A program made the position numbers and the translations under genes. Below are positions 12,612-17,403 of a stretch of DNA of 64,000 nt, piece after piece (the stretch's first letter is position 1; the number at the start of each line of letters is the position of its first letter). The notes under the pieces are model-generated. The model did no database searches. It worked only from the letters and a program-made list of their open reading frames with translations, and was not told the DNA's origin. Origin of the DNA: Corynebacterium aurimucosum ATCC 700975 (GTDB lineage: Bacteria; Actinomycetota; Actinomycetes; Mycobacteriales; Mycobacteriaceae); the NCBI RefSeq assembly GCF_000022905.1, contig NC_012590.1, positions 2,356,001 to 2,420,000 of the forward strand. Direction: 5' to 3'.

Positions 12612-12785
12612 CTACCCAAAAAGCCGGGCAAATAGGCCCTTAGCCGGCTTTTCCTGGCCGGCTTTATCAGAACTACAGGTGCGCCACTGACCGGCCGGAA
12701 CCTTGGCCTTGACCTCAGCAACGTGGTTCCCACACCCTGCCCAGGTGGTCTTTCCGCAGTTTTTACATTTCACAGCACGGCACAT
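12612..12785 (-). CDS. 57-residue zinc-ribbon-like protein, first gene of the sulfur-stress operon
   Basis: A short reading frame from ATG 12785, preceded by AAGGAGG at six bases, to TAG at 12612. It begins MCRAVKCKNCGKTTWAGC and continues GNHVAEVKAKVPAG, with CxxC, CG and a following GxH that could bind one zinc ion, then WRTCSSDK and a basic tail ending LFARLFG. Similar short MCRAVxC proteins are widespread in Actinobacteria with no known function. It lies directly behind the duplicated-operator promoter and ahead of the CoADR-Rhd gene, so it is probably induced with it. A seven-codon copy of its 5' end is repeated at 14893-14917 by the insertion event. Confidence 0.82.
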   Translation of the reverse strand: MCRAVKCKNCGKTTWAGCGNHVAEVKAKVPAGQWRTCSSDKAGQEKPAKGLFARLFG

Positions 12786-12809
12786 GCCGGTCCTCCTTCA
12801 TTTCACCAT

Positions 12810-12870
12810 ATACCCCCTAGGGTATCGCGGACACAGGAAGGAATATACCCCCTGGGGTATGCTACGTCAA
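12810..12870 (-). promoter_or_regulatory. Operon promoter with two CstR/CsoR-type operators
   Basis: On the reverse strand a -35 TTGACG (12865-12870) and a -10 TATATT (12842-12847) are separated by 17 bases. The spacer and -10 contain the dyad ATACCC-CCTG-GGGTAT (12845-12860). A second dyad, ATACCC-CCTA-GGGTAT (12810-12825), lies 35 bases downstream between the start site and the ribosome site. A/T-flanked C-run/G-run dyads are typical of CsoR-family operators. The predicted ligand is the CsoR-family protein encoded last in this operon. Confidence 0.8.
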
Positions 12871-12908
12871 GAAGCCCCTCAGTTTCCATAACCGCCCGCC
12901 CTAAAACC

Positions 12909-12938
12909 AGAAAAGCCCAGCCGAAGCTGGGCTTTTCT
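12909..12938 (-). terminator. purL terminator, left (duplicated) copy
   Basis: Perfect 13-base stem AGAAAAGCCCAGC and GCTGGGCTTTTCT with a CGAA tetraloop. In this copy it follows only the purL fragment. The same hairpin at 15041-15070 serves the intact purL. Confidence 0.85.
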
Positions 12939-12973
12939 TCTAGAGGCTGCGGGACAAGCAGCGTGAGTGGGGT

Positions 12974-13218
12974 CTACTCCACCACGGAGTTGGCCCCCAC
13001 CGCGTGGCCGAAGAGGTCCGGCAGGGTCGCCGCCCAGGCCTCACGAAGCTCGGAGACAGCGATGGACTCACCGCCGAGCTCCAGCTCACCGTTGTCGGTG
13101 GTCTGGCCGATGACGACGGCCGGCACACCGCACTCCTCAGCGCGGTGCAGCAGCATGTCGACGCGGTCAGCGGTCGTTGCCACGAGCACGCGGGAGGCGG
13201 ACTCGGAGAAGGCAGCCA
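12974..13218 (-). pseudogene. purL 3' fragment created by the insertion
   Basis: The last 81 codons of purL, identical to 15106-15350 and ending in the same stop codon. It has no start codon of its own and is cut at the left end of the insertion sequence. It is a by-product of the long target duplication and not a degraded ancient gene: no difference from the intact copy was seen. Confidence 0.9.
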
Positions 13219-14892: not shown

Positions 14893-14941
14893 TTTTACAT
14901 TTCACAGCACGGCACATGCCGGTCCTCCTTCATTTCACCAT

Positions 14942-15002
14942 ATACCCCCTAGGGTATCGCGGACACAGGAAGGAATATACCCCCTGGGGTATGCTACGTC
15001 AA
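14942..15002 (-). promoter_or_regulatory. Duplicate CstR-type promoter facing the insertion sequence
   Basis: Same elements as at 12810-12870: -35 TTGACG at 14997-15002, -10 TATATT at 14974-14979, dyads at 14942-14957 and 14977-14992. Transcription from here would read the truncated zinc-ribbon start and then the insertion sequence antisense to its transposase. The sequence is seen; the antisense effect is inference. Confidence 0.7.
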
Positions 15003-15040
15003 GAAGCCCCTCAGTTTCCATAACCGCCCGCCCTAAAACC

Positions 15041-15070
15041 AGAAAAGCCCAGCCGAAGCTGGGCTTTTCT
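15041..15070 (-). terminator. purL terminator
   Basis: Perfect 13-base stem with CGAA loop, as in the left copy, 36 bases after the purL stop. The A-run and T-run on either side make it able to act in both directions. Confidence 0.88.
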
Positions 15071-15105
15071 TCTAGAGGCTGCGGGACAAGCAGCGTGAGT
15101 GGGGT

Positions 15106-17403
15106 CTACTCCACCACGGAGTTGGCCCCCACCGCGTGGCCGAAGAGGTCCGGCAGGGTCGCCGCCCAGGCCTCACGAAGCTCGGAGACAGCGATGGACT
15201 CACCGCCGAGCTCCAGCTCACCGTTGTCGGTGGTCTGGCCGATGACGACGGCCGGCACACCGCACTCCTCAGCGCGGTGCAGCAGCATGTCGACGCGGTC
15301 AGCGGTCGTTGCCACGAGCACGCGGGAGGCGGACTCGGAGAAGGCAGCCACGAAGGCGTCCTCATGGACCTTGGACAGATCCAGGTTCAGCCCCACGCCG
15401 CTGCGCTTGGCCATCTCGAATGCGGTGACGGCGAGGCCGCCTTCGGAGAGGTCGTGAGCAGCAGTGACGCCTTCGTTGCCCACGAAGAAGTCAGCGAGGC
15501 GCTGCTCGTTGGCCAGGTCCACCTGCGGGGGCAGACCATTCAAACCATTCTCCGACTCATTTCCTTGCTCACGAGCGCTGACCTGCTGCCAGATGGAGCC
15601 GCCAAATTCATCCTTGGTCTCACCCAGCAGCACGAGTACCTCCGGCTCCTCCACGAGACCAAGCTCGTTGCCGATGGACTTGTGGACGTCGTCGATAACA
15701 CCCAGGACGCCCACGACGGGCGTCGGCAAGATCGGCTCCTCGCCGGTCTGGTTGTAGAAGGAGACGTTGCCGCCGGAGACCGGGATGCCGAGTTCCACGG
15801 CGCCGTCGGCAAGCCCATGCACGGACTCGCGGAACTGCCACATCACGTCCGGGTTTTCCGGGGAGCCGTAGTTGAGGCAGTTGGTAATGGCCACCGGGCG
15901 GGCACCGGTGACGGCGACGTTGCGGTAGGCCTCCGCCAGCGCCAGGCGGGTGCCCATGTTCGGGTCCAGCTTGGTGTAGCGACCAGAGGCATCGGCCGAT
16001 ACCGCGATACCGCGGCCGGTCTCCTCGTCGATGCGCAGCACACCAGCGTTCGCGTGGTGGGACTGCACGGTGTTGCCGCGCACGTAGCGGTCATATTGCT
16101 CGGTGATGAAATCACGGGAGCACAGCGCCGGAGAAGCCACGAGCTTCTTCAGCGCCACGGTGAGGTCCTGCTTCTCCACACCCTTGAACTCCTGCAGCGC
16201 ATCCTGCCACTCCGGGCGGGCATAGGGGCGGTCGTAGACCGGAGCCTCGTCCGCGATGGTGCCGGCCGGGGCATCCACGACGACCTCGCCCTGGTGGCGG
16301 ATGATGAGGTGCTTGCCAGTGGTGACCTCACCGATCTCAGCGCAGGTGACATCCCAATGCGCGCAGATCTCCTTGAACTTCTCCACGTTCTCCGGGGTCA
16401 CCACGGCACACATGCGCTCCTGGGACTCGGAGGCGAGGATCTCTGCGGCGGTCATGTCCTTGGCGCGCAGCGGGACGTTGTCCAGGTTGATCTCCATGCC
16501 GCCATCGCCGGCGGCGGCCAGCTCGGAGGTCGCGCAGGCCAAGCCCGCGCCACCCAGGTCCTGGATGCCAACCACGATGCCGGACTTGTACAGCTCCAGG
16601 CAGCACTCGATGAGGACCTTCTCCGCGAACGGGTCACCCACCTGAACGGCCGGCAGCTTGCGCTCCGCGCCGTCCTCGAAGGTGTCAGAGGCCAACACGG
16701 ACACGCCTCCGATGCCATCGAGACCGGTGCGCGAGCCGAAGAGCATGACCTTGTTGCCGGTACCGGAGGCGAAGGCCAGCTTGAGGTCATCCACCTTCAG
16801 CGTGCCCACGCACAGCGCGTTGACCAGTGGGTTTCCGGAATAAGACTCATCAAAAACAGTTTCGCCGCCAATGTTGGGCAGGCCCAAGCAGTTGCCGTAG
16901 TGCGAAATACCGCCGACCACGCCAGGCAAAACGCGCTTGGTGTCGGGGGCATCAGCCGGGCCGAAGCGCAGCTGGTCCATCACGGCAATCGGACGAGCGC
17001 CCATCGCCATGATGTCGCGGACGATGCCGCCGACGCCCGTGGCCGCACCCTGGTGCGGCTCCACGTAGGACGGGTGGTTGTGGGACTCCACGCGGAAGGT
17101 CACCGCGTTGCCGTCTCCGATATCCACCACGCCGGCGTTCTCACCGATGCCCGCGAGGATCTTGGAGCCCATTTCCTCGGTCATGGTTTCGCCGAAGTAG
17201 CGAAGGTGCGTCTTGGAGGACTTGTAGGAGCAGTGCTCCGACCACATCACCGAGTACATGGTCAGCTCAGCGTCGGTGGGGCGGCGGCCCAAGATTTCGC
17301 GGATGTGCGCGTATTCATCATCCTTCAGACCCAATTCCCGGTAGGGCTGCTCCAGCTCAGGCTGCGCGGCCGCCTGCTCGACGGTGTCGTTGTGTACGGT
17401 CAT
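15106..17403 (-). CDS. purL: Phosphoribosylformylglycinamidine synthase subunit II
   Basis: ATP-dependent synthetase subunit of the three-part FGAM synthase (PurL, PurQ, PurS) in purine synthesis. 765 residues, the size of the small bacterial PurL. Seen in order: [15 protein letters not shown], the FGAR-binding His region; [49 protein letters not shown] [15 protein letters not shown]; and the second repeat with [11 protein letters not shown]. The start ATG 17403 has AAGGAG; purQ ends 29 bases upstream. The last 81 codons and terminator are duplicated beyond the adjacent insertion sequence, so insertion did not truncate the enzyme. Confidence 0.96.

Follow-up and report, generated by a model that had tools for sequence, protein, structure and literature searches.

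Two questions are raised by an insertion sequence (IS) next to purL in Corynebacterium aurimucosum ATCC 700975: how a single insertion came to be framed by two copies of a 458-bp segment of target DNA, and how the neighbouring genes came through it. The window analysed is the whole stretch of 64,000 nucleotides from contig NC_012590.1 (positions 2,356,001 to 2,420,000), in which positions at this locus are counted (Table 1). The two copies agree base by base over 458 bp at a constant offset of 2132 and abut both ends of the IS, left and right; the exact run between them is 459, as one extra base agrees. Within the five scored of 106 first-look candidates the block was found in the genome at these two places only. 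The IS has perfect inverted ends of 11 bp (CCTGACTTAGG / CCTAAGTCAGG). The repeat is confirmed as real, and the identical copies and the very long target duplication, both described in an earlier sequence-only reading of this DNA, hold; identity of the copies is also what is expected of the recent event that was proposed there.

Table 1 Features at the insertion site (positions in the window)
Feature	Position	Strand	Basis
Gene for a 57-aa protein with CxxC pairs, intact	12612..12785	-	sequence comparison
Left copy of the 458-bp target duplication	12761..13218	.	identity to 14893-15350
purL 3' fragment within the left copy, 81-aa ORF	12974..13219	-	ORF list
IS1634-family insertion sequence, 1674 bp	13219..14892	+	inverted ends; 4 more full copies in genome
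Left terminal inverted repeat CCTGACTTAGG	13219..13229	+	end comparison
Transposase, 534 aa	13272..14876	+	NF033559 347.4 bits; PF01609 62 bits
Subterminal repeat TTCCGCACTAAGTGGG, left end	13299..13314	+	sequence
QLALDF, codons 82-87, sliding-clamp-binding-like motif (putative function)	13515..13532	+	alignment column count
Subterminal repeat, right end, 88% match	14866..14881	+	sequence
Right terminal inverted repeat CCTAAGTCAGG	14882..14892	-	end comparison
Right copy of the 458-bp target duplication	14893..15350	.	identity to 12761-13218
5' stub of the 57-aa gene in the right copy, 8 codons and 1 base	14893..14917	-	sequence
purL, intact, 765 aa	15106..17403	-	NF002290 969 bits

The transposase belongs to the IS1634 family, as had been supposed from its sequence, since the NCBIfam model of this family (NF033559) matches it with 347.4 bits against a cut-off of 100; IS701, IS4 and five further models all stayed far under their cut-offs. 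Residues D206, D284 and E440, invariant across seven aligned relatives, are read as the putative catalytic DDE triad. The family has a long N3-C1 spacer, and here 155 residues lie between D284 and E440. According to the 2008 family paper, further marks are the DDE residues, a Y-(2)-R-(3)-E-(6)-K motif in which the R is mostly absent, ends of the form C-----YT and a length of 1500-2000 bp (PMC2266710). The window IS shows Y433, L436 in place of the R, E440 and K447, the ends CCTGACTT and a length of 1674 bp. Its 458-bp duplication departs from the 5-6 bp given for the family, yet the same source counts IS1549 and IS1634, with 8-514 bp, among the members (PMC2266710), so that duplication length does not define membership. 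A search for a solved structure related to the transposase by sequence found none.

Eight matches to the IS are present in the genome, five full copies and three fragments below 100 bp. All five full copies carry perfect repeats, of 458 (window), 883, 433, 99 and 237 bp, and with this variation from copy to copy they correspond to the long-repeat type known from IS1549 and IS1634; long flanks at other copies, which the sequence-only reading had named as a check, are thus found over a range of 99-883 bp. The element within the 237-bp repeat is 86% identical to the window IS, and the transposase of the 883-bp copy is split across two frames. The joined flanks of the 883-bp insertion align end to end with loci of two related species (L317, 90%; L318, 82%) in which a single block stands without an IS. 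These loci represent the empty site, and as both relatives have one block only, the 883-bp repeat arose with the insertion. The right edge of this block is situated within a lactate permease gene. At the 433-bp insertion, good conservation in relatives is confined to the right part of the site. At the window locus purL runs uninterrupted through the junction in several related species, and the 57-aa gene was not matched beside purL in these relatives; the proposed single-copy empty site is accordingly established for the 883-bp copy, and for the window locus on its purL side only.

The flanks of 99 copies from Corynebacterium and other Actinomycetota were classed by a custom script. They comprise 52 perfect long repeats, 12 of 5-6 bp, 31 copies without a call and 4 at contig ends. 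The perfect long repeats extend from 23 to 1267 bp (median 171.5 bp, 14,492 bp summed), with a possible error of a few bases in the lengths, and seven of those in Corynebacterium are longer than 514 bp (563, 698, 786, 883, 976, 1198 and 1267 bp). The lengths fit a log-normal distribution (geometric mean 179) and also an exponential one. As a chance control, flank pairs were taken from different long-repeat copies; junction-anchored exact repeats of at least 18 bp appeared in 0 of 2652.

The clade of the window element contains 45 of the 67 rows of a transposase tree (ORFs of 440 aa or longer); copies whose transposase is broken, such as L024, L028, L031, L131 and L132, are absent from this tree and were assigned to the clade by similarity. 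Its 74 copies are divided into 50 long, 6 short, 16 without a call and 2 at contig ends, and L023, L034, L122, L123, L133 and L228 were left unclassed. Both ends could be resolved for 65 insertions of the clade, of which 55 are long, 6 of 5-6 bp and 4 without a repeat (L111, L132, L240, L031). The long ones are made up of 50 perfect repeats, one repeat around a composite transposon (L116, counted as a single insertion) and four decayed repeats: L106 (95 bp, 99%), L024 (813/805 bp, 89%), L115 (38 bp, 97%) and L100 (26/29 bp). For L024, L106 and L115 the script had called 18-19 bp, and these values were set aside manually. Outside the clade two long repeats were found (L258, L261). Altogether 57 of the 61 resolved insertions other than the 5-6 bp type have long repeats, a count from which 15 of the 25 copies outside the clade are excluded for want of a call; the ends of several of these 15 could not be located. 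In the window clade, then, a long repeat is the usual outcome.

Short duplications occur there as well, namely in one element whose five called copies (L224-L227, L229) all have precisely 5 bp, its sixth copy being the unclassed L228, and in the single 6-bp copy L237. They sit near long elements such as L244-L246 (64, 128 and 365 bp) with moderate branch support of 80-94, and the tree as a whole requires at least three changes between the long and the short type (L260 was set to 5 bp from its ends, for tree and motif rows only). Repeat length could not be predicted from how symmetrical the inverted ends are, as judged by eye.

The composite transposon L116 is located on plasmid pCFAEC45971a of Corynebacterium faecale (NZ_CP047205.1, about 81.8-88.2 kb). 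Between its two IS copies lie genes for a TetR regulator, two SMR transporters and a hypothetical protein, and a perfect repeat of 513 bp brackets the 5.35-kb unit. The two outer ends must therefore have transposed together, and even with this larger load a long repeat was made.

For the 52 long insertions the block edges were read from both IS ends outward, against a background of about 0.2. Base 1 is a T in 28/52 cases on the right and 26/52 on the left, and base 5 is an A in 25/52 on each side (P between 6e-8 and 1.2e-5). The right side additionally favours T at position 2 and A at position 3, and positions 6-12 show no significant departure on either side. The Corynebacterium subset alone gives T in 21 and 23 and A in 21 and 22 of 42 insertions. 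Both edges of the block therefore share the same weak preference for T at base 1 and A at base 5. The complete T-N-N-N-A stands at 17/52 right edges and 14/52 left edges, and at both edges of the same insertion in 2/52. In 33/52 an edge is ambiguous by at least one base; the 19 unambiguous insertions point in the same direction (T first at 11 and 9, A fifth at 8 and 9). In the short elements (n=12) base 1 is nearly always T or C, and base 5 nearly always A or G. Each edge of a long block thus looks like a separate target site, which would not be expected of an edge made by repair alone. A comparison of the first and last five bases of the block revealed no similarity.

Helical phasing of the repeat lengths was absent at 10 and 10.5 bp; at 11 bp the uncorrected P value was 0.074 for lengths below 500 bp and 0.045 when all lengths were taken, the latter being a single result among twelve phasing tests. 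With no clear phasing, a rigid loop between two sites is disfavoured.

Taken together, we assign a probability of roughly 0.8 to the reading that the window IS is an IS1634-family insertion which makes long variable target duplications by two-site strand transfer and copying synthesis; the two-site step is one that we infer from the junctions. The two transposon ends would undergo strand transfer at two separate sites of the 5-bp type, one on each strand, at a distance of about 20 to 1300 bp and in duplicating polarity. The two 3' ends of the target would then prime DNA synthesis that displaces and copies the interval, which would amount to ordinary gap filling at a larger scale, and a gene would be broken only where it spans the whole block. 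The original site should be exactly recoverable if the two long repeats recombine.

A possible extension, put forward tentatively, is that the ends are uncoupled in this clade, each choosing its own 5-bp-type site, and that a polymerase, perhaps via the QLALDF motif, copies between them. The pattern Qxx[LMF]x[LFI] is found in one alignment column in 43/45 clade rows and 0/22 other rows (67 aligned rows), elsewhere in at most 3 per column, with the variants QLSLPL and QMSLDI in two elements with transposases of about 32% identity. It recalls the clamp-binding consensus QxxL(x)F (PMC5371812). The motif is confounded with ancestry and its role in clamp binding is putative; as the 5-bp element with five copies inside the clade also has the clamp-like motif, the motif alone does not set the length. 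The transposase of IS1634-1 from Acidiphilium is described as binding the beta sliding clamp via a C-terminal motif (PMC4549789), whereas QLALDF occupies residues 82-87 of the window transposase. If the ends are indeed uncoupled, the element would be one whose insertions often spare genes and are exactly reversible by repeat recombination, with a built-in clock in the divergence of the long repeats.

An unlikely alternative to two-site transfer on one target is that each end joins a different sister duplex behind the replication fork at unequal positions, which would give a duplication or a deletion. Edges that look transposase-chosen on both sides and the lack of clear helical phasing are in line with such a process, and the clamp binding reported for an IS1634-family transposase (PMC4549789) speaks in its favour. 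However, it predicts about equal numbers of duplications and deletions, and the observed share of duplications differs strongly from one half (P 2e-13). A ratio of 57 to 4 points to opposite-strand transfer in the usual polarity rather than to random site pairs on sisters, even if selection against deletions could contribute to the excess. Nor is there a bias of orientation with replication, as 13 of 30 full-length copies are co-directional (counted by hand in seven genomes with a DnaA-like gene at the contig start, partial matches omitted and the terminus taken as opposite the origin). Deletions may have occurred at the four insertions without a repeat, and at L111 the left flank is conserved in relatives and the right flank is not. 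L100 and L115 were also considered as deletions and ruled out by the decayed repeats found there.

That the IS landed between the copies of an already tandem-duplicated block is very improbable: the repeat abuts both IS ends in 52/52 long cases with differing blocks and lengths, two related species show a single block at the empty site of the 883-bp insertion, and nothing in support of a pre-existing duplication was found. An assembly artefact deserves no more credit; repeats with IS copies are hard to assemble, but many genomes have perfect repeats of differing length and flanks, and decayed repeats such as those of 95, 38 and 813 bp ill fit one read placed twice. An ordinary 5-bp insertion that was altered later, through an independent duplication or through recombination among IS copies, can practically be dismissed in spite of the 5-6 bp elements in the family and inside the clade, because recombination would mix flanks and the pair of L116 is the sole mixed pair seen among copies of the same genome (comparing exact 25-mers up to 3 kb away, with the ends miscalled for a few copies), and because a later duplication is not expected to stop at both IS ends every time.

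Two-site transfer with copying also bears on the fate of the genes. The left edge of the block is codon 9 of the 57-aa gene, with the ATG taken at 12785, and not codon seven as first read; the right edge lies 81 codons before the end of purL. A complete purL on the right and a complete 57-aa gene on the left agree with the claim that both neighbours stayed whole. The term self-repairing, which had been used for this insertion, is overstated, as nothing is repaired and a gene survives unless it spans the whole copied block. It is the geometry of the duplication that spares genes, and since a gene is lost only if it spans the entire block, the hit in purL was harmless to the reading frame. Searches with family models gave no match for the 57-aa protein. 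Among 50 of the 52 long insertions (L234 and L235 were skipped for runs of N), 13 blocks lie inside one ORF, which is rarer than the 33.7 expected for random nearby placement. At least one edge falls in an ORF that survives whole in 31/50 insertions, the window insertion included; ORFs of at least 90 aa were taken by a greedy longest-ORF rule, and the 57-aa gene is thus uncounted. Loss of harmful insertions can explain the deficit of blocks inside one ORF, and special targeting is unnecessary. The survey also suggests a way in which an element can strike genes of a densely packed genome and do little damage.

Long variable target duplications were already reported in 1998-1999. IS1634 of Mycoplasma mycoides, cited in the sequence-only reading as the known exception, does not stand alone, for IS1549 of Mycobacterium smegmatis is named with it, both having variable long direct repeats of 8-514 bp (PMC2266710). 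That 2008 paper states that no mechanistic model for the long duplications had been put forward (PMC2266710), and among the matches listed in searches of open-licence PMC papers neither a later model nor such an element in Corynebacterium came up. The window IS shares with IS1549 and IS1634 the family name and long repeats of variable length, and differs, in a comparison with published descriptions, by the Corynebacterium host and repeats up to 1267 bp. In addition, edge preference and an empty site, set against IS1549 and IS1634, are shown for the window clade. The phenomenon itself is thus known and the window IS adds a case from Corynebacterium, where the clade repeats exceed the published range that was found. 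Other elements assigned to the family by name have 6-bp repeats in place of hundreds of bases, as stated for ISGka5 (PMC8024623) and for ISPfe2/Tn6097, the latter being a composite transposon like L116 (PMC3281130). Edge preference, lengths without clear phasing and the deficit of blocks inside one ORF are new evidence bearing on the mechanism, and many natural insertions, with short and long types in one clade and an edge preference, make it directly testable.

In Corynebacterium macginleyi the copies around the broken IS L024 show that such repeats diverge, and their divergence could date insertions. At L011 (G000:C2:1122450) the stop codon of a 297-aa ORF, which matches an ECF transporter S component below the cut-off, marks the exact end of the 99-bp block.

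Upstream of the 57-aa gene two palindromes, ATACCCCCTAGGGTAT / ATACCCCCTGGGGTAT, are situated at 12810-12825 and 12845-12860, and both were doubled by the insertion (14942-14957, 14977-14992). We take them to resemble operators of the metal-sensitive-repressor type, a putative assignment. In their vicinity are a gene of the metal-sensitive-repressor family (10656-10937, PF02583) and one for a CoA-disulfide reductase-like protein with a rhodanese domain (10916-12529).

Remnants of the element were also observed. At L043-L055 a 750-bp piece corresponds to the right part of the IS (positions 925-1674) with about 94% identity, and its right flank is common to 12 of the 13 loci (L046 being without an anchor), which indicates an old insertion at one locus. 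L013 (G000:C2, near 596706-596818) is an element of about 112 bp that has both IS ends but lacks the transposase; the join seems to lie close to the subterminal TTCCGCACT repeat, and there is a second left-end fragment about 350 bp further on (597063); similar pairs occur in four further genomes (G015, G047, G114, G155).
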